Shown piece by piece: positions 4,697 through 21,145 of a stretch of 24,920 bases of DNA. The DNA is from a virus, in the IMG/VR virus record IMGVR_UViG_3300047557_002998, positions 1 through 24,920 of that record. The stretch is one strand, 5' to 3'. Made by a program: the position numbers and the translations under genes. Position 1 is the stretch's first letter, and each line of letters starts with the position of its first letter. The notes under the pieces were generated by a model. The model saw nothing but the letters and a program-made list of their open reading frames with translations. It did no database searches and was not told the origin of the DNA.

Positions 4697-4897
4697 CTAC
4701 TTCGATCGCTTTGCACGTTCAGCCAGCTCCGTCTTTCGGCTGGCGTAGTTCCGCGCCGCACCCGCGGTCTGCTCTTGGCGCTGGTTCAAAAGTTCGGCCT
4801 CCGAAAGGCTCCGCTCTTTCGCCCAAAGCCCTCGGAGCGCCCCCAGAAACTTGGCCCCCGCACTCAAGGCTGCGGCCAGTCCCGCTAGATCGATCAC
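4697..4897 (-). CDS. Small protein with hydrophobic N-terminus, unknown function
   Basis: This 66-residue protein starts at a GTG that overlaps the stop of the 28-residue membrane peptide (GTGA). Residues 1-25 are hydrophobic (IDLAGLAAALSAGAKFLGAL) and could be a membrane or amphipathic helix; the rest is highly charged and helical (KERSLSEAELLNQRQEQ onward to a basic tail). A small-membrane-protein/charged-tail layout resembles some holins or spanin-like proteins, but nothing proves lysis function and no endolysin is next to it. An alternative frame at 4719-4931 is Arg/Gly-rich and looks like a shadow. Confidence 0.5.
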   Translation of the reverse strand: MIDLAGLAAALSAGAKFLGALRGLWAKERSLSEAELLNQRQEQTAGAARNYASRKTELAERAKRSK

Positions 4898-4980
4898 CTA
4901 CCCACCGCCATGGCCAAAGGCGCCAACGCAAAAGCTATCGCTCCAACCACGACCAACCAGAAAGCAACGCGCCGAATCAT
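4894..4980 (-). CDS. Putative 28-residue single-pass membrane peptide
   Basis: The ATG at 4978-4980 opens a short frame whose product is basic at the N-terminus (MIRR) followed by about 20 hydrophobic residues (VAFWLVVVGAIAFALAPLAM), a clear transmembrane segment, ending GR. GGGAGC lies just before the ATG, and the stop overlaps the GTG of the next gene by four bases. It is the first gene after the terminator that follows the capsid gene, so its expression may need readthrough or its own promoter. It may work with the neighbouring hydrophobic protein; function unknown. Confidence 0.4.
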   Translation of the reverse strand: MIRRVAFWLVVVGAIAFALAPLAMAVGR

Positions 4981-4993
4981 GCTCCCAGAATAG

Positions 4994-5027
4994 CAAAAAC
5001 CCGGCAGCCCCACAGGACCACCGGGTT
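4994..5027 (-). terminator. Rho-independent terminator after the major capsid gene
   Basis: On the minus strand the sequence forms a stem AACCCGG / CCGGGTT (5027-5021 with 5004-4998) around a 16-base loop, followed directly by a TTTTT tract (4999-4995, partly shared with the stem). It lies 33 bases past the capsid stop codon. Such a site lets the highly expressed capsid transcript end while a fraction continues into connector and tail genes. Confidence 0.65.
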
Positions 5028-5059
5028 CAAACACCGCCGAGCTTCAACCCGGAAGTTCG

Positions 5060-6448
5060 TCAGCCGTGCTCGATCACGACCGCGCGCTTGTGGCGAGCCG
5101 TGTCGCCCGAGAGCGCATCGCTCGGCGTGGCGAAGTCGCCCGACCAGCTCCACGACTGGGTCACAGTCTGTTGGAGAGCGTCTTGGGGCGCGCGGAGAAT
5201 GTAGCGAATGCGCTGAGTCATCACCGCGACGCCACCGTTCACGATCGAGAACTCACCGATCTTACCCATCACACCGGCCTCGGTGATGAACTTGGACTCG
5301 TCCAAGTACTTCTCGGACATCACGCCGCCACCGGTGATGATGCAACGACGAATGTCGTAGCCGTTCTCGTTGGTGACCTCGGCGCCGATCTCCTTTGCCA
5401 AGCGAGCGCCACCGTCGCCACCGGGCGAGACCTCCAAGCCGCCATAGCAGTTGGCTTGACTCGGGTTTTCCGTGTTGCGGTAGAACCGGCCACCCACCGC
5501 GTCGCCGAGCGCCAAGTCCCGATACGCGATCGAATCCGGAAGCGACTGGTGCAAGCGCTGCCAGTGATTGTCGGCGAACAATTGCTGTTCACCGGTCGGG
5601 GTGACGTGCACGTGATAGCGGCCATCAGCGTGGGGCGGGATGTTCTGGTCCCGAAGACGAGTGATGCCCGCGATCACGTCGTTGAGCGTCAGAATGTTCG
5701 TCGAGCTGAGGGCGTCGACCGTCGCGCCACCGCCAACGCGCAACCGGCGCGCGCGGGTGGCGGCATACACCGCATCACGGGCAGCCAAACCAACCGTGAG
5801 CGCCGCCGAGAGCGTGAGCACACCCGAACCCAGCGGCTCTGCCGGGTCGTTGGGCGTGTAACCCACCACGGTGTTTGCCGGCTCGCCCGCGACGCTGAAC
5901 GTCACCGGGAGCGGGTTTCCCGGGCTGACCGGCAGCAGCTTGCCGTTCAACAGTCGCTCGGTGAAGCCGTTGAGGGTGGTCACCTGGACCTGGAACGCAC
6001 TGGCGCTAGCCGTAGCCCGAACCATCGCCTCGCCCGCGAGGTACGACGCAAACAGACGGTTGCGCGTTAGAGTGTTCATGGTCAGCGCCGCGCCCAGGCC
6101 CAGCTGCTGGGTGTTGCTGAGGAACGTCGACGCGAGCGTGACGTAGGACGTCGGCATGTGAGTGACGTTGCTGTCGCCGTACTGAGCGGCGGTCACGTCC
6201 CATTGCTCCATTTCGTACTGACGCGGGACCGGATCTTGGCCCGGGATCAGCGGCTTGATCGACGGCAACGGACGACCGCGCCGGGTGAAGATCATGCGCT
6301 CGCCGAGGTTGGCTTCCCAGCGATCGGGTACCGCTTCGCCGCGGAAGAGCAGCTTGGGCATCGTTGCATCGTGGAACACGCGCTCCAGCGTGCCGTCCTG
6401 GACGATCGCGCTCAGCGAACTCGGTATACCTTGCAAAATTAGCGACAC
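5060..6448 (-). CDS. Major capsid protein, HK97 fold
   Basis: The 462-residue protein would build the icosahedral head shell. It is encoded directly after a probable scaffold gene, in a transcription block ended by a terminator. The sequence resembles N4-gp56-type capsids: an N-terminal arm, MIFTRRGRPLPSIKPL near 53-68, a helical core (ALTMNTLTRNRLFASYLAGE), a beta-rich insertion at about 180-215 and the section LRDQNIPPHADGRYHVHVTP near 268-287 followed by QQLFADNHWQRLHQ. The C-terminal region contains KIGEFSIVNGGVAVMTQR and closes with an arm ending in HG. The start is GTG with AAAGGGA upstream; the preceding ATG in another frame lies inside the ribosome binding site. Subfamily name is less certain than the capsid role. 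Confidence 0.85.
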   Translation of the reverse strand: MSLILQGIPSSLSAIVQDGTLERVFHDATMPKLLFRGEAVPDRWEANLGERMIFTRRGRPLPSIKPLIPGQDPVPRQYEMEQWDVTAAQYGDSNVTHMPTSYVTLASTFLSNTQQLGLGAALTMNTLTRNRLFASYLAGEAMVRATASASAFQVQVTTLNGFTERLLNGKLLPVSPGNPLPVTFSVAGEPANTVVGYTPNDPAEPLGSGVLTLSAALTVGLAARDAVYAATRARRLRVGGGATVDALSSTNILTLNDVIAGITRLRDQNIPPHADGRYHVHVTPTGEQQLFADNHWQRLHQSLPDSIAYRDLALGDAVGGRFYRNTENPSQANCYGGLEVSPGGDGGARLAKEIGAEVTNENGYDIRRCIITGGGVMSEKYLDESKFITEAGVMGKIGEFSIVNGGVAVMTQRIRYILRAPQDALQQTVTQSWSWSGDFATPSDALSGDTARHKRAVVIEHG

Positions 6449-8838: not shown

Positions 8839-8851
8839 GGTAGCCCCCTAC

Positions 8852-9142
8852 TCAGCGACGCAAGCCGCTCGGTGCCGTGCCTACGCCGAAGCCCGAAGGA
8901 TCGTCCACGGTCGAGCTCTGTGGGGTGCGTGACGGGTCGGGGGTGTAGCCGTTGAAGGTTGCGGGCGGTCCACCCACGACAGCGACGGACGGCAATTCAG
9001 CCTCCGAAAAGAACTTCCCGGCAGGTGCGCCGCCTTGCGTGAAGTCGGGGTTCTCCTGAGGGTTGGGCACTGGCGACGGGCTCCCGACCCCTGCGCCAGT
9101 GCTGCCAGACATTGCGATTGATCGAGGATTGCGTTCGGCCAT
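8852..9142 (-). CDS. Small Pro/Gly/Ser-rich protein, unknown function
   Basis: A 96-residue low-complexity protein rich in Pro, Gly and Ser (GSTGAGVGSPSPVPNPQENP near the start, TPDPSRTPQSSTVDDPSG later) with a short hydrophobic turn SVAVVGGPPATFNGY. The ATG at 9142 has ATGGGGACC immediately upstream; another in-frame ATG lies nine bases earlier. It sits 13 bases before the next gene and appears to belong to the structural block. A disordered virion linker is possible; nothing diagnostic is seen. Confidence 0.5.
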   Translation of the reverse strand: MAERNPRSIAMSGSTGAGVGSPSPVPNPQENPDFTQGGAPAGKFFSEAELPSVAVVGGPPATFNGYTPDPSRTPQSSTVDDPSGFGVGTAPSGLRR

Positions 9143-9244
9143 GGTCCCCATCCTGACACAACGGCCGGAACGCGTCTACCGGTTCCCAAGATGCCAGCAA
9201 TGGCAGGCTTTGCAGCGAAACATGTTCAGGTTGACGGCGCCCCA

Positions 9245-9724
9245 TCAGCCCAGCCCGCTCACGATCGCCAGGAGCCGTGCACCCCAGGCGCCTTGGACAC
9301 CGCGGCCCAGTCGCCCGAGCTCCGGCATTGCAGCCTTGTTTGCCGTGTAGCGGCCGTAGGCCTTACGCAAGAAATGCTGGACATCAGGCAGATCCCGGTC
9401 TGGCCCAAGTTGAAGCCGAGCAACCCCAGCTCTCACGTCGTCAATTGTGAGCCTCTCCCCACTGGAACCCAACGGGACCCCCACCGAACCCAACGTGAAC
9501 GTCGAGTCGTCAAGGTCCGTAACGATGAGGTTCGGGCCAAGCGTCACATGGACGGGCTCTTCGGCGCCGTTTTGGACCAGCTGCTTGACTCCCTCGTGGA
9601 CCGCCTCTCGAACCACGGAGGACGGCACGGACAGCGCTTCACCGTCCTTGCTCCAATATTGGATTGTCCAGTCGCCGAGAGCTTCGGCCACGCCCACTGC
9701 CAACTCGTTGTTTTTCATAGTCAC
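9245..9724 (-). CDS. Unknown 159-residue phage protein
   Basis: The product is a mixed alpha/beta protein. It has WTIQYWSKDGEAL near 19-31, a helix with VVREAVHEGVKQLVQ, then VHVTLGPNLIVTDLDDSTF and a C-terminal helical part (HFLRKAYGRYTANKAAM). The GTG at 9724 overlaps the previous stop (GTGA); the in-frame ATG six bases later has AGGTGACT and could be the true start. In the same frame after its TGA there is a short Cys/His-rich reading segment (see findings). I do not recognise the family. Confidence 0.55.
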   Translation of the reverse strand: MTMKNNELAVGVAEALGDWTIQYWSKDGEALSVPSSVVREAVHEGVKQLVQNGAEEPVHVTLGPNLIVTDLDDSTFTLGSVGVPLGSSGERLTIDDVRAGVARLQLGPDRDLPDVQHFLRKAYGRYTANKAAMPELGRLGRGVQGAWGARLLAIVSGLG

Positions 9725-10131
9725 CTAAACCTAACTGGTGAGCCCCCAACCACTGCGATCGCCTCACCTGGGGAATCCGGAAGCCCGTAGCGCAGCTCGC
9801 GCTCAGCGGCCTGATAGTCTTCTTCTCGTTGCGACTCTCGGGGCGAGAGCGCGCCATCCGTGGGGCGGCACCAGGGGTCCTGAGCTAGGGTTCCGCTCGA
9901 CCGACGCCGGAGCAGCTCCTCACGCTCGCCGCGAGCAAACTCGAACGTCTGGCTCGGGTGCTGCTCGATCATCTCCTCGCGGTATTGCTCATCACGCTTC
10001 GCAAGCAAGCGCCCGCGCTGTGACGATCCTCCGGGAGGTGCGGAGGGGCCGGCGAACGCGCTCGCCGTAGGGAGGGGAGAGAGGGACCCCGGAACCGGCG
10101 CCCGATCCTGCCGTGGCTTCCACCTTCGCAA
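9721..10131 (-). CDS. Unknown protein; 5' end unresolved, possible +1 frameshift product
   Basis: From about base 10060 downward this frame looks coding: a Pro/Ala linker (SAFAGPSAPPGG) leads into a charged helical part (RDEQYREEMIEQHPS, GEREELLRRR) and a C-terminal REEDYQAAERELRYGLP segment. Upstream of base 10070 the frame becomes Arg/Pro-rich and unlike a protein, while another frame looks better. There is no convincing ATG or ribosome binding site; the 10131 limit is a TTG. It may be the downstream half of a gene that begins in the frame of 9992-10198. Function unknown. Confidence 0.45.
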   Translation of the reverse strand: MRRWKPRQDRAPVPGSLSPLPTASAFAGPSAPPGGSSQRGRLLAKRDEQYREEMIEQHPSQTFEFARGEREELLRRRSSGTLAQDPWCRPTDGALSPRESQREEDYQAAERELRYGLPDSPGEAIAVVGGSPVRFR

Positions 10132-10198
10132 CGATCTCCGCGAACGTTTCGGTGGGCTTGGGGTAGTCGCCCTTGGTAGAGCTCGACCCGATCGCCAA
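9992..10198 (-). CDS. Short open frame, probable upstream part of a frameshifted gene
   Basis: Opening at a TTG, this frame reads KGDYPKPTETFAEIVAKVEA, which looks like genuine protein, then enters a Gly/Ser and Pro linker and becomes Arg-rich. It is in frame with the gene ending at 10232, separated from it by a TGA. A third frame starting at GTG 10235 (GTGA overlap, ending at 9969) reads RPEQRHAVALGDRVELYQG and may hold the real start. The three frames follow each other by +1 steps. I cannot decide between small overlapping genes, programmed shifting and sequence error. Confidence 0.35.
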   Translation of the reverse strand: MAIGSSSTKGDYPKPTETFAEIVAKVEATAGSGAGSGVPLSPPYGERVRRPLRTSRRIVTARALACEA

Positions 10199-10231
10199 GC
10201 GCCACCGCGTGCCGTTGCTCCGGCCGCAGGC

Positions 10232-10690
10232 TCACCCGTTGAACCATCGGTCCAGCTCCAGCTCGCACTTCGGCGAACAGACGTAGTCCCGTTGGCCCCC
10301 GTGCTCGTCCAACGACTGAACGGCTCTGTGGATGTCGTCGCCGCAGTTCATGCAACGACCCGTCCGCACGCGGTCCCCAGGCTGCCAAGGTACGTAGCGA
10401 AACACGGCCTCGGGGAAGAACTGGAGCACGGTCGGATCGTAGATCTTCCCCGTCGAGTCCACGCACCAGACGTGCTCGGCGCGGTGAGCTGGTTCCCCTG
10501 GTTCCGGTCGCTCATCGTTCGCAGACAAGCACACCCAACCCGGAACCACCGTCAGACCGAACACCTTGGCGAGCTCTCGCGAAGCCACGCCACAGTGTCC
10601 GACTAGCGCCCTGTGCGACAGCGCGCCCATCGACGTCACCCGCTGGACGTAGCCCGTGATCCAGGCCTCGATCATCGCATCATGGCTCAC
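10232..10690 (-). CDS. Transglutaminase-like cysteine protein with C-terminal zinc ribbon
   Basis: The 152-residue product combines two parts. Residues 30-90 have the layout of transglutaminase/papain-like enzymes: GHCGVASRELAKVFGL puts a Cys (33) at the start of a helix, EHVWCVD supplies His 73, and GKIYDPT supplies Asp 85, matching the common HAW...DPT pattern. Residues 110-145 hold CMNC (113, 116) and CSPKC (138, 142), a probable zinc ribbon. Transglutaminase-like folds can hydrolyse or cross-link amide bonds; which applies here is unknown. It starts at a GTG inside a GTGA overlap with GGAGGT six bases upstream. It is encoded in an accessory island between minor-head and structural genes, next to the ASCH-like and macro-domain genes. 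Confidence 0.6.
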   Translation of the reverse strand: MSHDAMIEAWITGYVQRVTSMGALSHRALVGHCGVASRELAKVFGLTVVPGWVCLSANDERPEPGEPAHRAEHVWCVDSTGKIYDPTVLQFFPEAVFRYVPWQPGDRVRTGRCMNCGDDIHRAVQSLDEHGGQRDYVCSPKCELELDRWFNG

Positions 10691-11412
10691 TTGCCTACCT
10701 CCAGCTTCTTGAAAGATAACATCACCCATCCAGGCGCCAGGCCTCGGAAACCTCTCAACACATGAGTGACCACCACCGCTATTTCGCCGCCTGGGTATTC
10801 TGAGCCAGTGAACTCTCGGAGTACTAACTGGTCACCAACCGAAAACGTTCGGTCGTCAACTCGCAGCTCGGCCGTCTTTGCTCCTGAAGCAACCTCTCCA
10901 AAGAACGGTTGAATTGTCTTGAGCTCGTGAATCTGCCCACCCCCATTGCGACGAACGCCCGCCTGGTGTTCCGGTACCACTGGGAGCGACTCGATCCACT
11001 CTGCGAAAGCTGCCCGCGCCGCCGCGCAAATCTCACACTCAGTTTCGCGCGGCTTCCCCCAGCAAGCCGGCACCAAAGCCCCACTAACGATCCCAGACTG
11101 CCGCTCCCACCACGGGATCTCCAAATGCTCGACCGGGGTCCAGGCCCACGCCCCAATCATCGACTTCACCCGACCGAACCCCGGGATGGTCATTCCCCCA
11201 AGCTCCGCTACCCTTCCTTCACTCGCTTTGACGTCGTACATTTTTTCCTCCTTCATCCACTCACGCTGGCGTCCCATCATGATGTCCCGGACCGCAGCGC
11301 AGACTCGCTCCCGCGACTCGCTCCACGCGAACGGGACCCCAAGGAAAGCCGCTAGCCTACGAAACCCGTTCTCGTTTTTTTTAGACCAGGCGTCCCAGTT
11401 GAACCGGCTCAC
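10687..11412 (-). CDS. DUF3850 (ASCH/PUA-like) domain protein with unknown N-terminal region
   Basis: Residues 160-236 match DUF3850, a small PUA-like domain of the ASCH group thought to bind RNA or modified nucleotides. The visible pattern is IHELKTIQPFFGEVASG, then AELRVDDRTFSVGDQLVLRE, then a YPGGEIAVVVTHVL strand and a final PGWVMLSF. This domain often occurs as a stand-alone phage protein of about 80 residues; here it sits behind 160 residues of unrecognised sequence containing CWGKPRETECEIC (Cys 117, 126, 129) and Trp-rich segments (IGAWAWTPVEHLEIPWWERQ). I chose the GTG at 11412 because of the GTGA overlap with the macro-domain gene. No catalytic assignment can be made. Confidence 0.7.
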   Translation of the reverse strand: MSRFNWDAWSKKNENGFRRLAAFLGVPFAWSESRERVCAAVRDIMMGRQREWMKEEKMYDVKASEGRVAELGGMTIPGFGRVKSMIGAWAWTPVEHLEIPWWERQSGIVSGALVPACWGKPRETECEICAAARAAFAEWIESLPVVPEHQAGVRRNGGGQIHELKTIQPFFGEVASGAKTAELRVDDRTFSVGDQLVLREFTGSEYPGGEIAVVVTHVLRGFRGLAPGWVMLSFKKLEVGK

Positions 11413-12050
11413 GGTCGCGCGCACCCGTGACAGCGACTCTCATGGTCGAGTTCATCCGCCAAACGATCGCCGCCACAGCTCACACAAGAGCCCCACTCAG
11501 GGGACAGTCGCTGGGAATGCTCCCAAGCCGCTCGGGCAACGTCCAACTGTCGATCGACCAACGCCACATCCAGGTCGTCCAGGCACTCCCGAACAAGCCC
11601 GTAGACCATCCCGCGCTCCAATCCGCCGTTACCAGCGCCAGGCAGCGTCAGAGCCAGCTGGAGCGCCATCCCACGCTTTCTCTCAGCCAGAAACCAGCTC
11701 CTGAGCTGCTCCAACCCAGACCGAATCAGCGGCACCGACGCCAACTGATCCCAGCTGGCCGCCGGGTTCCGTCGGTTCAGCGGCTTCACTGGCAGAAACA
11801 CTACCCGTAAGTCATCGCGCTTGAGCACCGGCATGCTGCCTAGCTGGCTAGCCGCAAACTGACAACAGCGACGCCCGTACCAGGCCGGAAGCCACGGCCA
11901 CCGCCGAGCTGCCGCCTGCACAGAGCCGGCCCCCATGTTGTTGTAAACAGCCGTTGGGCTCCTCAGCTCGCCCCACCCCAGATTGGTGGTCACGACCACG
12001 TGGTACCCCTCCTCGTGGAAAGCCCACAGGTCCCCGTTGAACTCTTTCAT
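11409..12050 (-). CDS. Macro-domain protein with C-terminal zinc ribbon
   Basis: The 213-residue product reads as a macro domain (residues 1-170), a fold that binds ADP-ribose and in several families removes it from proteins or nucleic acids. Visible marks are FNGDLWAF at 4-11, a VVVTTN strand at 18-23, YNNMGAGSVQAAARRWPWLP at 36-55 (the usual N-x-MGxG...A...P loop), VVFLPVK at 83-89, a helix with LIRSGLEQL, and LPGAGNGGL at 136-144, the second substrate loop. After a charged helix the tail has CVSC (189, 192) and CHGC (207, 210), a probable zinc ribbon. The ATG overlaps the previous stop and has AAGGTGGGCTC upstream. It is two small genes downstream of the MuF-ART gene, which suggests a joint ADP-ribose function. 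Confidence 0.7.
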   Translation of the reverse strand: MKEFNGDLWAFHEEGYHVVVTTNLGWGELRSPTAVYNNMGAGSVQAAARRWPWLPAWYGRRCCQFAASQLGSMPVLKRDDLRVVFLPVKPLNRRNPAASWDQLASVPLIRSGLEQLRSWFLAERKRGMALQLALTLPGAGNGGLERGMVYGLVRECLDDLDVALVDRQLDVARAAWEHSQRLSPEWGSCVSCGGDRLADELDHESRCHGCARP

Positions 12051-12319
12051 GAGCCCACCTTGCGAGAAAACCACCAACGCCCCCAGCGCCCCAAGCCCAG
12101 GCAAGTCCAACCTTCGTCGCGGAGCTGGCACAAGAGAGCCCCATGAATCTCTGGGACCCCGTGCTCGGGCACCGATAGCGTGGCCCCTTCGCCACAAACG
12201 ACCAGCTGCGCCGTCACAGGGCACAATCTCTCGCCAACCTCGCCCGTCGCTGGCGCGGCATCCGAGCCGGCGCCACGCGGGACAGTGACCTCCAGGGTCA
12301 CCTCCTGATAACTAGCCAT
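12047..12319 (-). CDS. Unknown 90-residue protein before the macro-domain gene
   Basis: The product has a beta-type start (YQEVTLEVTVPRGAG), a middle with LCPVTAQLVVCGEG and ALLCQLRDEGWTCLGL, and a Trp/Arg-rich end (GRWGRWWFSRKVGS). It contains four Cys residues but not in clear CxxC pairs. The ATG at 12319 is preceded by CGAAAGGACAAC, shared exactly with the gene starting at 21918. Its stop overlaps the macro-domain ATG, so the two are translated together. The regular strands suggest a small beta protein; function not recognised. Confidence 0.6.
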   Translation of the reverse strand: MASYQEVTLEVTVPRGAGSDAAPATGEVGERLCPVTAQLVVCGEGATLSVPEHGVPEIHGALLCQLRDEGWTCLGLGRWGRWWFSRKVGS

Positions 12320-12335
12320 GTTGTCCTTTCGTTGG
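12317..12335 (-). promoter_or_regulatory. Strong ribosome binding site, copy 1 of an identical 19-base leader
   Basis: The minus-strand leader CCAACGAAAGGACAACATG (start codon included) is repeated base for base at 21916-21934. It marks a gene that starts without overlapping its upstream neighbour. A short GGGCC/GGCCC hairpin and a T8 tract lie just upstream. Confidence 0.55.
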
Positions 12336-12359
12336 GCCCTTGTTGGCCCGAAAAAAAAC

Positions 12360-12614
12360 CTAGCTCGGAAAAAACTCCGCGGCAATCAGTTTCGCGTTTT
12401 CTTCGTCGGACGCCGGCACGTTTCCACCATCCCTAACGTAATGCCCAAAGGCCGCAACAGCGATCGCCAGCTCTCGACGCGGGACACCGTCGAGCCCGTA
12501 GGCTGATACCCGGTCAAACGGGAAGGCTTCCGGTTGGTACGGCGGCTCGGTCCCCCGCACGTAATGTCTCGCCATAAGGTACCCTGTCGCAACTAGTCGC
12601 TGTACTCTGGTCAT
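12360..12614 (-). CDS. Unknown 84-residue protein following the MuF-ART gene
   Basis: The start is a TGATG junction with the MuF-ART gene, with GGAGG before it, so it is translated with the toxin-like protein. The product is mostly helical: RVQRLVATGYLMARHYVRG, then a Pro-containing turn and ELAIAVAAFGHYVRDGG, ending in EENAKLIAAEFFPS. Position directly after an ART-bearing protein makes an immunity or chaperone role possible, but no motif supports this. A longer in-frame reading to 12728 lies entirely within the upstream gene and is not needed. Confidence 0.6.
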   Translation of the reverse strand: MTRVQRLVATGYLMARHYVRGTEPPYQPEAFPFDRVSAYGLDGVPRRELAIAVAAFGHYVRDGGNVPASDEENAKLIAAEFFPS

Positions 12615-14713
12615 CAGTCCTCCAACCCGTCGGCCTCCACCACATAGCAGTGGGGGGCAATCTGATAGATCTTCGTCGCCACGAACCGTGCGTCGCGAGG
12701 CTGCACCAATTCGCGCTCCGTCGACCACGGCGCAAACTCCTCAATAGCCACACCGCGAGCGTTTCGAAGGCGGAACAACACACGGTTCCTGTGTGGGCCC
12801 TCGCCACCACCTGCGCCCCATTGGGCTTTGCGGTGGTCCAACCCAGCGAAGCTGGACGCTGAGACTCCCTGATTCCAGGACGTGGAACTAGTGCCCGCCC
12901 CCCCGTTCTCGCCCAGCATGAACGGCTTGCCCGCGAGCCACGAATCGAACGCCTGTAGCGGGATATTCCTGATCCCTCGCCAGACAATGAGCCCCTTTTC
13001 CGGCGTGCCCTGCTTGAGCGCCTCGTGGATCAGATCGCTGGCTGCAGACGGGGCCCCAGCGGCTTCCGATTGCCGGATGGCAGTGTATAGCGCGCCGCCG
13101 AACGACTGGATCGCGCGACGTTGCTCGTCTGGTAGCGACTTGCCAAATGCGGCCGACCGCGAGGCGATCCCCGCCGGATCAACCAATCCACCATCATGCG
13201 TTCGGGCCTTCAGGTCTACCGCCAGAGCCTCTCGCGGCACGTCCGCCAAGATCTTGGCCTTGTCGCCCAGCGTCTTGGCTTGAGCCCAGGCCCGTTCGGC
13301 CCGTTTCAGGGCATCATCAGCCTGTGACAGCGACTGTTTCTGCCGCGCCGCGCGCCGCGCCTCGACCTTTGCAGCCTGAGCTGCCGCCTTTTGCGCCTTG
13401 AGCCTCTCGATGGCAGCCGCTTTCGCCGCTTTCGCCGCGGCCTTTGCTTGTTCCTTCTCGGCTTTGGCTTTCGCTTGCTCTGCCTGCTTCTGCAGCTTGA
13501 GCTGCTCAGCAGCTGCCGCCTTTTGCGCCGCCTTCAGCGCCTTCGCCCGCGCAATGGACGCCGCTTTCTGCGCCGCGATGGCTTCTTTCAGCTTGGCTTT
13601 CGCCGCCGCATCCAAGGCCGCCGTCGCTGCGCTCGCGTTGGACGCCTTCGTTTCGGCCTCAGCTTTTGCCGCCTTCTGAGCCTTCACCTTCTCGTTCGTG
13701 CTCAGGATGTCGCCCCACAACGTGTTAGGGCTCGCCTCGGGGCCCTTGGGCGGGACCGGCGCTTGCGGCTTCGTCTCTTTCGGGTCCTGGCTCGCGGTGT
13801 TCGGGAGCTCCTTCCACGAGAGCCGCCACGGCACGATCGTCTCGCGATCGTTGGGGCGCCCTGGCGGGTGGAGGTACTGCCGCCCGGCACCGTCCATGAA
13901 ATATTCGTCAACCTTGCGCACCTGCCCGTGCACAGCAACCGAGTCCGGCGCGGTCCGGTTGTCGAAGTGCGCCAAGATCTTCTTCGCCATGTCGGGGAAC
14001 TGGGTCACCCGGAGCTCGTTGATCGAGCTGAGCGCGGCCGCGTTGTGCGCGAACGCCACCTCGGTGCGGACGATCCGCTCCGCCCAGTACCGGCGCTTGA
14101 CGTAGCTCGTGGGCTTCGGGAAGTGCCCCGGCGTTGCCTCGTGGAGCTTGCCCGCGTTGATCCCGCCGTGCTTGCCAGCCTCTACGAGCCGGCTCACCAG
14201 CTCCGAATTGCTCAACCCGAGCATGAGCCCCACCCGGAGCTGCTTTTCAAAATCCGCGATCATCCGCTGCCCGTAGCGGTCCACGCTCGTCTGGTGCTGT
14301 CGCAGCAGGCTGGCGCCCGTTCCTCGAACGTTGGCGTCGAGCCAGCCCTGGACGTCAATGGCCAACGGAATGGCCACGCCGGTGAAGCGCTTCTCCAGGC
14401 TCTTGGTCAGGGCGATCGTGTCCTTCGTCCCAATCGCGATCGCTTCCTTGGCCTTCTCGTGGGTGAGCCCGAGCAGCCGCTTGTTGACGTACTGCTGGAC
14501 CAGCTTGATCTGACTACGGAACAAGAGCGCGCTAGCGTCGCTGAACCGCACGTCCGCGCCCTGCTTGTCGACGACCTTGCCGAGCTTCGCCGCCAGCTGC
14601 TTGTCTGCCTCCAACAAGATAACGGGCAGGGAGCCCGTCGCAACGTAGGCCTTCCCTGCCCGCCGCAGTGTCTCCTCGATCACCGCCTCGAACTCGTCGT
14701 CGGTCGCTGCCAC
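12614..14713 (-). CDS. MuF minor head protein fused to an ADP-ribosyltransferase domain
   Basis: The 699-residue protein has three parts. Residues 140-300 resemble the MuF/SPP1 gp7 minor head family: RYWAERIVRTEVAFAHNAA near 208-226, AHFDNRTAPDSVAVHGQ near 248-264 and HPPGRPNDRETIVPW at 282-296, where the usual PPxHPNCR Cys is absent. Residues 340-490 are a long Ala/Lys/Gln coiled coil. Residues 530-690 fit an R-S-E ADP-ribosyltransferase: Arg 579 in VWRG, Ser-Thr-Ser at 610-612, and Glu 666 / Glu 668 in STERELV. MuF proteins bind the portal, are packaged in few copies and may be ejected with DNA; MuF-ART fusions are a known phage toxin class. It is encoded right after the portal, starting at GTG with AAGGAATAGGG upstream. 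The target is unknown. Confidence 0.82.
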   Translation of the reverse strand: MAATDDEFEAVIEETLRRAGKAYVATGSLPVILLEADKQLAAKLGKVVDKQGADVRFSDASALLFRSQIKLVQQYVNKRLLGLTHEKAKEAIAIGTKDTIALTKSLEKRFTGVAIPLAIDVQGWLDANVRGTGASLLRQHQTSVDRYGQRMIADFEKQLRVGLMLGLSNSELVSRLVEAGKHGGINAGKLHEATPGHFPKPTSYVKRRYWAERIVRTEVAFAHNAAALSSINELRVTQFPDMAKKILAHFDNRTAPDSVAVHGQVRKVDEYFMDGAGRQYLHPPGRPNDRETIVPWRLSWKELPNTASQDPKETKPQAPVPPKGPEASPNTLWGDILSTNEKVKAQKAAKAEAETKASNASAATAALDAAAKAKLKEAIAAQKAASIARAKALKAAQKAAAAEQLKLQKQAEQAKAKAEKEQAKAAAKAAKAAAIERLKAQKAAAQAAKVEARRAARQKQSLSQADDALKRAERAWAQAKTLGDKAKILADVPREALAVDLKARTHDGGLVDPAGIASRSAAFGKSLPDEQRRAIQSFGGALYTAIRQSEAAGAPSAASDLIHEALKQGTPEKGLIVWRGIRNIPLQAFDSWLAGKPFMLGENGGAGTSSTSWNQGVSASSFAGLDHRKAQWGAGGGEGPHRNRVLFRLRNARGVAIEEFAPWSTERELVQPRDARFVATKIYQIAPHCYVVEADGLED

Positions 14714-19698: not shown

Positions 19699-20534
19699 GA
19701 CTTGCTCCTCGCATCCCTCAACATCTGCGGAAGCGTCCGCAAAGCCTCCTCAGACACACCAGTTGATCGGATCGGCGCGCTCTCGAACTCTCCGAGCAAC
19801 ATCCTTGTGAACACCGAACGAGCGGAAGCCAGAGCCAGCTCCTTCGCGCACGAGCCCGGCTTTTGACGGCAGACCATTCGGAGCTCGCTCTCGTAGAAAA
19901 TCCCGCAAAGCGTCCCGTGCTCAAACCAGAGCCCCTCGCTTCGCCCAGCGACGATCGCCGCGCGCGCCTCGTCCAGCTCTTCGTCACCGATAAACGCAAT
20001 GTCGTAGTTCTCTGCCGTCAACATCTTGCCGTCCTTTCCAACCAAATGCGCCGCCGCGTCGAGCGACTTGGACCGTGGCGGCAAAACACCAGGCATCACG
20101 CCAAAATGCTGCCATATCGTGTCTGGCTTTTTGGGAATCGCCTGGGGCGTCGTGTCCAGCCGGATCTGCGCGAGCGCATTGCCCACACGGTAGGCCTCGT
20201 CTGTGACCAGTAGCTTGTCCCAGTCGACGCGGACGCGGTGACCGTTGTGCACGCTGAAGACGAGGCCGTCGCCCGTCGCGTCCTCTGCCACCTCGACGCT
20301 GGAGCCCTCCGACGTCACCGCGCCGCCAAAGGCGATGAACTTCAGTCGACCCTGATGGATCCCAGGGCGCCACCCATCCACGAACGGATCGTACACCTCA
20401 CCAGTCGGCGAGTGCACGAACCCCAAGAGTTGATAGACGTCGAGCGCAAAACTCGTCCTGGTCTCAACCAGGAGCACCTCCGCAGGCACGCTCACAACAC
20501 TTGGGGTTCCAGCCCAATCCGGCGTCGTCGTCAC
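19695..20534 (-). CDS. Unknown accessory protein (about 280 aa)
   Basis: I chose the GTG at 20534 because its GTGA overlaps the methyltransferase stop in the usual style; an ATG at 20546 would add four residues. The protein is alpha/beta: an N-terminal strand region (SVVSVPAEVLLVETRTSFAL), VYDPFVDGWRPGIHQGRLKFIAFGG near 45-75, a regular middle, YDIAFIGDEELDEARAAIV and a C-terminal helical part containing RMVCRQKPGSC. Inside it, GGAAAGGACGGCAAG precedes an in-frame ATG at 20024, a possible internal start for a 109-residue C-terminal form. No domain recognised. Confidence 0.55.
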   Translation of the reverse strand: MTTTPDWAGTPSVVSVPAEVLLVETRTSFALDVYQLLGFVHSPTGEVYDPFVDGWRPGIHQGRLKFIAFGGAVTSEGSSVEVAEDATGDGLVFSVHNGHRVRVDWDKLLVTDEAYRVGNALAQIRLDTTPQAIPKKPDTIWQHFGVMPGVLPPRSKSLDAAAHLVGKDGKMLTAENYDIAFIGDEELDEARAAIVAGRSEGLWFEHGTLCGIFYESELRMVCRQKPGSCAKELALASARSVFTRMLLGEFESAPIRSTGVSEEALRTLPQMLRDARSKS

Positions 20535-21145
20535 GACGTCCACCATTCCGTTTCGACGGGGTCCGAGCTCGGATCTTCGATTCGGTCACGGTCGCGCCGC
20601 ATCAACTCCAACACCACGTAGTCGTGGCGTGCCGTGTGGCCCTTGCAGGCCGGGCCGTAGAACTCGGGGCGTCCCACCAGGATTGCGCGCCGCGTGACCG
20701 TGGCCCAGCGGAACAGTTGGTTGTATCGCCCCTTGCCGTATTCAAAGTTGGTCCGCACCAGGCAGATCACTCGATTGGCGAACCGCAGCGCGTGAGCAGC
20801 GTGAGAGCCGTCCGCGCCGTTGGCGTAGGGCGAGTTCATGATCGCGACGTCGAACGCGTCACGCCTGGGCTTCCACGCCAGGAAGTCGCCCTCGTGCACC
20901 TCTAGCGCCGGGTGACGAATCTCCCGGAGCCGCGCGCACATTGCCGGGTCCCGCTCCACAGCCGTCACCCGCACGTTCATTGGGAACGCTCGGACCAGGC
21001 CACCGTCCCCCGCACTCGGCTCCAACACGCTCTGCCCGCGCGAGAGCTCCGCCCAGTCCGCAATCCGCCGAGCCAAGTCTCTGCTCGTGAAATACTGGTC
21101 CTGGGCCTCGCCCTGCTCGCTGTACTCGTACTCCAGTTCGCTCAT
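20531..21145 (-). CDS. DNA adenine methyltransferase-like protein with NSPY motif
   Basis: The 204-residue protein carries the marks of an N6-adenine DNA methyltransferase. QYFTSRDLARRIADWA near 17-32 resembles the motif-X/SAM pocket entry, LEPSAGDGGLV at 41-51 is motif I, VERDP near 63-67 is the acidic motif II, EGDFLAW near 85-91 is motif III and NSPY at 104-107 is the catalytic motif IV, with Ser in place of the usual Pro in NPPY. It is short and lacks an obvious target recognition domain, so specificity may be loose or it may act with another protein. Phages use such enzymes to mask DNA from restriction. It is ATGA-coupled to the gene upstream; no restriction partner is present. Confidence 0.72.
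   Translation of the reverse strand: MSELEYEYSEQGEAQDQYFTSRDLARRIADWAELSRGQSVLEPSAGDGGLVRAFPMNVRVTAVERDPAMCARLREIRHPALEVHEGDFLAWKPRRDAFDVAIMNSPYANGADGSHAAHALRFANRVICLVRTNFEYGKGRYNQLFRWATVTRRAILVGRPEFYGPACKGHTARHDYVVLELMRRDRDRIEDPSSDPVETEWWTS

Follow-up and report, generated by a model that had tools for sequence, protein, structure and literature searches.

The analysed window, a virus record of 24,920 bases, has a GC content of ~64%, and the gene under study is read from its minus strand (Table 1). Translation from the GTG codon at 10690 gives 152 residues, VSHDAMIEAWITGYVQRVTSMGALSHRALVGHCGVASRELAKVFGLTVVPGWVCLSANDERPEPGEPAHRAEHVWCVDSTGKIYDPTVLQFFPEAVFRYVPWQPGDRVRTGRCMNCGDDIHRAVQSLDEHGGQRDYVCSPKCELELDRWFNG, and the frame contains GHCGVAS, EHVWC and IYDPT; the plus strand of 10232-10690 is broken by a stop. 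The translation confirmed the motifs of the initial annotation, which named no strand, and its placement of Cys33, His73 and Asp85, and the tail CMNC...CSPKC supplies Cys113, Cys116, Cys138 and Cys142. The GTG start is well supported by the upstream GGAGGT and by the GTGA overlap with the preceding gene. An alternative ATG 39 nt farther upstream is in frame but would overlap that gene. The third-position GC content (GC3) of the gene, 0.80, is similar to that of the structural genes of the window.

Table 1 Features of the locus, with coordinates in the window
Feature	Coordinates	Strand	Basis
Whole gene, 152-aa transglutaminase-like protein with C-terminal zinc finger (predicted)	10232..10690	-	GTG start 10690, stop 10232-10234
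Transglutaminase-like domain (predicted), residues 1-103	10382..10690	-	AlphaFold2 model and VIA-align range 1-102
FCS/TRASH-type treble-clef zinc finger (predicted), residues 109-152; Cys113, Cys116, Cys138, Cys142	10235..10366	-	Model and alignment
Cys33, putative nucleophile, opening helix 33-44	10592..10594	-	Invariant in 63/63 aligned sequences
His73, putative general base, within strand 70-77	10472..10474	-	Invariant in BLAST-found homologues
Asp85 (DPT motif), putative orienting residue for His73	10436..10438	-	Invariant in BLAST-found homologues
Shine-Dalgarno GGAGGT	10697..10702	-	6 nt before the GTG start; sequence read directly
Upstream gene with C-terminal DUF3850 (ASCH-like) domain	10687..11424	-	Stop overlaps the start of the 152-aa gene as GTGA
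Variable accessory interval holding the 152-aa gene, flanked by the MuF-like gene on one side and capsid-side genes on the other	8839..12613	-	Other genes there in syntenic phage L141

Because the DUF3850/ASCH gene upstream ends in a TGA that shares the GTGA overlap with the GTG start, the two genes are probably co-translated. Such an arrangement would suit an addiction or superinfection-exclusion module formed jointly by the 152-aa protein and the DUF3850/ASCH protein. We regard that reading as highly improbable, since the DUF3850 pairing was seen only in the window and no neighbour family was found to recur across the other loci of the family.

The putative catalytic triad held up in the homologue alignment that had been proposed as its check. 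In six sequences gathered by plain BLAST without regard to the triad, with identities down to 29%, Cys33, His73 and Asp85 were invariant (6 of 6), together with Trp75, Pro86, Thr87, Gln90, Phe91 and Tyr99. A wider scan of viral contigs with the pattern H-x-W-x5-G-x3-D-[PL]-T-x2-Q-F returned at least 119 matching stretches. The pattern itself fixes H, W, G, D, P or L, T, Q and F, and evidence therefore comes only from other positions. Among the matches listed, 113 of the 119 stretches had a plausibly spaced upstream Cys, and 59 of the 104 remaining after removal of near-copies carried a CxxC...Cx(1-4)[C/H] finger as recognized by a simple expression. Among the 99 non-redundant matches listed that had sufficient upstream frame, 96 had a Cys at -26 to -45, whereas shuffled sets averaged 62 and never exceeded 74; [GAS]-x-C was present in the same range in 85, compared with 15 (maximum 28) after shuffling. 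In a 63-sequence alignment, where H and D are set by the pattern, Cys33 was invariant in the 62 further viral-metagenome members, and Gly31, Leu46, Gly51 and Tyr99 were nearly or fully invariant. Three relatives (L030, L120 and L126) apparently lack the triad Cys. Pairs of relatives gave dN/dS values of 0.08-0.41, which places the family under purifying selection.

An AlphaFold2 model of the 152-aa protein, computed with a 63-row alignment as input, reached a pLDDT of 90.2 and a pTM of 0.80. Secondary structure assigned with DSSP runs from a helix at 33-44 that opens with Cys33, through a strand at 47-54 and a strand at 70-77 carrying His73, to a short strand and Asp85. The best VIA-align match of the model was Streptococcus pyogenes TglA (Z 6.6, 3.1 Å, 87 residues), with further matches to PeiW (Z 5.7), the transglutaminase 4xz7 (Z 5.2, 2.5 Å) and PeiP (Z 4.8), all at Z < 8, a level that by the tool's own caution can reflect a common arrangement. 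The other rows included arylamine N-acetyltransferases (Z up to 4.9), GdmF (4.5), SseI (4.1) and TgpA (4.0), and nearly all top rows were enzymes of the transglutaminase-like superfamily. Foldseek with the model against the PDB returned nothing below E 0.83, and BFVD gave two clear viral structure matches, both without a name in the tables. Since the Z scores are modest and the Foldseek result is not significant, the fold is assigned from motif, topology and rank order, which agree with one another. A model of L070, a finger-less YunG-family relative (pLDDT 82), has the same element order and ranks PeiW, PeiP, protein-glutaminase, SseI and LapG high. The term 'transglutaminase-like', used from the outset for this protein, is supported by triad conservation, by the helix(Cys)-strand-strand(His)-strand-Asp order and by best matches drawn nearly all from the superfamily, albeit at Z no higher than 6.6, and the 152-aa protein is predicted to adopt a transglutaminase-like fold.

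The presence of arylamine N-acetyltransferases and the GdmF amide synthase among the structural matches (Z ~3-5), likewise with a Cys-His-Asp triad, also fits a small-molecule acyltransferase or amidase of the arylamine N-acetyltransferase or amide-synthase kind that does not modify proteins. Arylamine N-acetyltransferases have ~270 residues, and their extra domains form the CoA and acceptor sites. The domain described here, by contrast, spans ~100 residues without such additions, and the finger suggests a macromolecular target, which makes a small-molecule enzyme unlikely.

The initial annotation described the tail as a four-Cys zinc ribbon. The module of four Cys is genuine and conserved, with Cys113, Cys116, Cys138 and Cys142 present in 63, 63, 60 and 61 of 63 alignment rows (most of which were selected for possessing the finger), but its ligand spacing, its Pfam and PDB resemblances and its modelled structure point to an FCS/TRASH-type treble clef, as which the tail is better read. 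The spacing CxxC...[FY]CSxxC is present, as YVCSPKC at its second half in the window protein, and residues 109-152 form a hairpin and then a terminal helix in the AlphaFold2 model. Relatives gave weak Pfam matches to TRASH, VATC, FLZ, DUF2116 ('probable treble clef') and FCS/MYM; the best PDB match of the profile was the Polyhomeotic FCS finger (E 0.0034), and VIA-align placed YacG over residues 109-152 at Z 2.5. Such a tail would be expected to bind zinc.

Similarity of the finger to DNA-, RNA- and protein-binding treble clefs, and the use of Cys, His and Asp as metal ligands elsewhere, would also suit a transglutaminase-like fold that serves for binding only, its three residues holding a metal or the fold and the protein acting as an adaptor or as a nucleic-acid binder through the finger. 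Order, spacing and secondary-structure position of the three residues, however, match what is expected of the superfamily's catalytic triad, and many relatives without a finger still keep the triad. We consider a binding-only protein improbable.

The 152-aa protein has no good match in Pfam, NCBIfam or PHROGs, and the Pfam transglutaminase models (Transglut_core PF01841, PF13471) do not match it; one finger-less relative matches Transglut_core3 PF13471 at 1.5e-4. Using tblastn against cultured phages, we found ten related Rhizobium phage records; those opened belong to Cuauhnahuacvirus and encode a 163-aa hypothetical protein in which triad and finger are both retained (QIG77689.1 and kin). 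Both the enzyme-like part and the finger also occur in the viral metagenome relatives L001 and L013, Myxococcus phage Mx1 has an 80-aa version without finger, and a 264-kb Tsukamurella plasmid replicon encodes a relative 42% identical to member L048. Matches to Herelleviridae and to Vibrio phage terminases (E 0.02-10) were dismissed as chance, lying only in a generic zinc-binding stretch or in a region without one. On a tree built from 77 columns the finger was clustered (10 changes versus 32 when shuffled), a pattern that does not establish a single origin, and some sequences labelled finger-less end with their contig or carry an unsure label (L023, L035 and L080). Comparison of the finger and finger-less sets with hhalign gave a Prob of 99, a value inflated because the same motif selected both sets. 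The window protein belongs to a large, apparently undescribed phage family, whose two-part proteins are encoded by dozens of uncultured phages.

The closest named relative of the window protein is the uncharacterised YunG family. Among the matches listed, PF24585 was matched weakly by 15 of the 63 relatives (best 2.3e-4), and 20 of 34 finger-less relatives also matched it. RHph_TM61 carries a finger protein and a separate YunG-type paralogue of 89 aa (L016), which scored 29.3 bits against the YunG Pfam cut-off of 27 bits; the two proteins align with each other at 33% over 63 residues. The YunG string H-x-W-x5-G-x3-D-[LP]-T-x2-Q-F with upstream G-x-C is present in the window protein, which gave no match to the PF24585 model at the 27-bit curated cut-off and is therefore not classed as a YunG member.

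Several related arrangements were observed on other contigs. Typical YunG proteins (HYWNRLPDG-x-ELDLTR-x-QF) are encoded at L070:12261-12653 and L093:2459-2815, on contigs classed as viral. At L017:1396-3177, Myxococcus phage Mx1 has the beginning of a large frame (1480 codons) in which a YunG/transglutaminase-like domain comes first and a GNAT acetyltransferase next, and similar GHCYVASEALYHLLGG domains are present in L022, L039 and L127. Just upstream of the finger protein in L013, positions 4820-5299 (L013:4820-5299) encode a second small protein (CFENC ... EHAWL ... RDITL) that has no Pfam match and may be a diverged transglutaminase-like protein.

The gene is flanked in the window by the MuF-like and portal genes on one side and the capsid-side genes on the other, on the same strand, a position that would suit a virion-assembly enzyme cross-linking or trimming head proteins in morphogenesis. 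The sole syntenic relative found, L141, is a single fragment with identities to the window of 44% for terminase, 39% for portal, 39% for MuF and 30-33% for capsid-side genes; its corresponding interval is filled by unrelated genes and holds no copy of the 152-aa gene. At the other loci of the family, the named families among 121 neighbours scanned were mostly DNA/RNA enzymes (helicases, RNA ligase, RecA, AAA_24, DUF669, methylase and HNH), with a single tail chaperone, and the Rhizobium phage copies sit amid small hypothetical genes. The earlier suggestion that the protein cross-links or cleaves proteins during assembly is not supported by these settings, and we judge it distinctly unlikely. 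With the L141 comparison limited to one fragment, gene content and synteny speak for accessory cargo over an assembly gene. It had also been remarked that the combination of enzyme and finger was not known from morphogenesis modules; this agrees with the exchange in L141 and with the DNA-metabolism and accessory neighbours, although the combination itself proved widespread in phages.

Other genes of the window also stood out. Toward its C terminus, the MuF-like protein (12614-13420, minus strand; VWRGI ... STSWNQ ... STERELVQPRDARF) resembles by eye an R-S-E ADP-ribosyltransferase, with no Pfam match. Near this candidate, the gene at 11409-12224 (minus strand) matches the PHROG 335 'phosphatase' at 9.2e-15 with no Pfam match, and its product is possibly an ADP-ribose phosphatase or a macrodomain-like protein. 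A methyltransferase-like gene at 20534-21145 (minus strand) matches domains that occur within phage proteins of very large size (PHROG 9133 and 6263).

Enzymes of the transglutaminase-like superfamily use their triad to form a thioester with an amide carbonyl, which is then passed to water or to an amine. We favour, with a probability of roughly 0.6, the reading of the 152-aa protein as a small Cys enzyme of transglutaminase-like (papain-like) fold whose substrate is recruited by the finger and which acts as accessory cargo aimed at a host protein. The gene, the conservation of triad and finger, the purifying selection and the variable genomic setting come directly from sequence and the fold from prediction; catalysis, chemistry, zinc binding and substrate are here what we infer. 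In a protein that is probably cytoplasmic (an assumed location), Cys33 would be the nucleophile, His73 the base and Asp85 the residue that holds His73. Cys33 would attack a side-chain or peptide amide of a protein to give a thioester, and resolution by water would make the enzyme a protease, an isopeptidase or a glutamine deamidase; transfer to an amine acceptor, that is, true cross-linking, would be less likely. The treble-clef finger would most likely recruit substrate or partner without taking part in catalysis. As the gene appears to be accessory cargo and not structural, the substrate is more likely to be found among host proteins or defence components than among virion proteins. Of the two roles suggested in the initial annotation, action on host targets would thus be the better one. 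Most likely, the product would be an accessory thiol hydrolase or deamidase directed to a host protein by its finger. A bolder proposal, which we put forward tentatively and consider doubtful, is that the large undescribed phage family, distributed across uncultured phages, consists of finger-guided thiol enzymes that modify or cleave specific host proteins of translation, nucleoid or defence and so provide a general tool of take-over or counter-defence.

We found no description of a finger-bearing transglutaminase-like protein from phages in the literature searched, where name searches were swamped by YunG as a surname; YunG is not named in the papain-like classification paper. A survey of phage polyvalent proteins lists four peptidase superfamilies, and its text has no mention of transglutaminase (PMC5512222). 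At least ~60 distinct phage proteins share the enzyme-plus-finger architecture, with no entry in the family libraries or literature searched. For many phage 'hypothetical proteins', the pairing of a short domain that has a full triad with a targeting finger that can be detached offers a concrete and easily testable prediction, and the family connects the uncharacterised bacterial YunG with transglutaminase-like enzymes.

The window protein resembles several known systems in part. With YunG (PF24585; Bacillus subtilis YunG, function unknown) it has in common G-x-C ... H-x-W-x5-G-x3-D-[LP]-T-x2-Q-F, with equal spacing from the His onward; unlike the YunG-family relatives examined, it has a C-terminal zinc finger, and it reads DPT where typical YunG reads DLT. 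With the transglutaminase-like superfamily (PF01841/PF13471; TglA, PeiW, PeiP and TgpA) it shares the Cys-His-Asp order, the Cys at the start of a helix, HxW and DPT, and the predicted fold, whereas its core is much smaller and without a Pfam match, Q-F is conserved after the Asp motif and a finger follows at the C terminus. The peptidases of polyvalent proteins (PMC5512222) are likewise phage-encoded, predicted and found in variable accessory settings, but the domain in the window is a stand-alone small protein. The tail, finally, shares the CxxC and [FY]CSxxC spacing, the hairpin and the C-terminal helix with FCS/TRASH/MYM fingers and related treble clefs (Polyhomeotic FCS, YacG and L24e), from which it differs in its weak sequence match to FCS/TRASH/MYM fingers and in its fusion to an enzyme-like domain.
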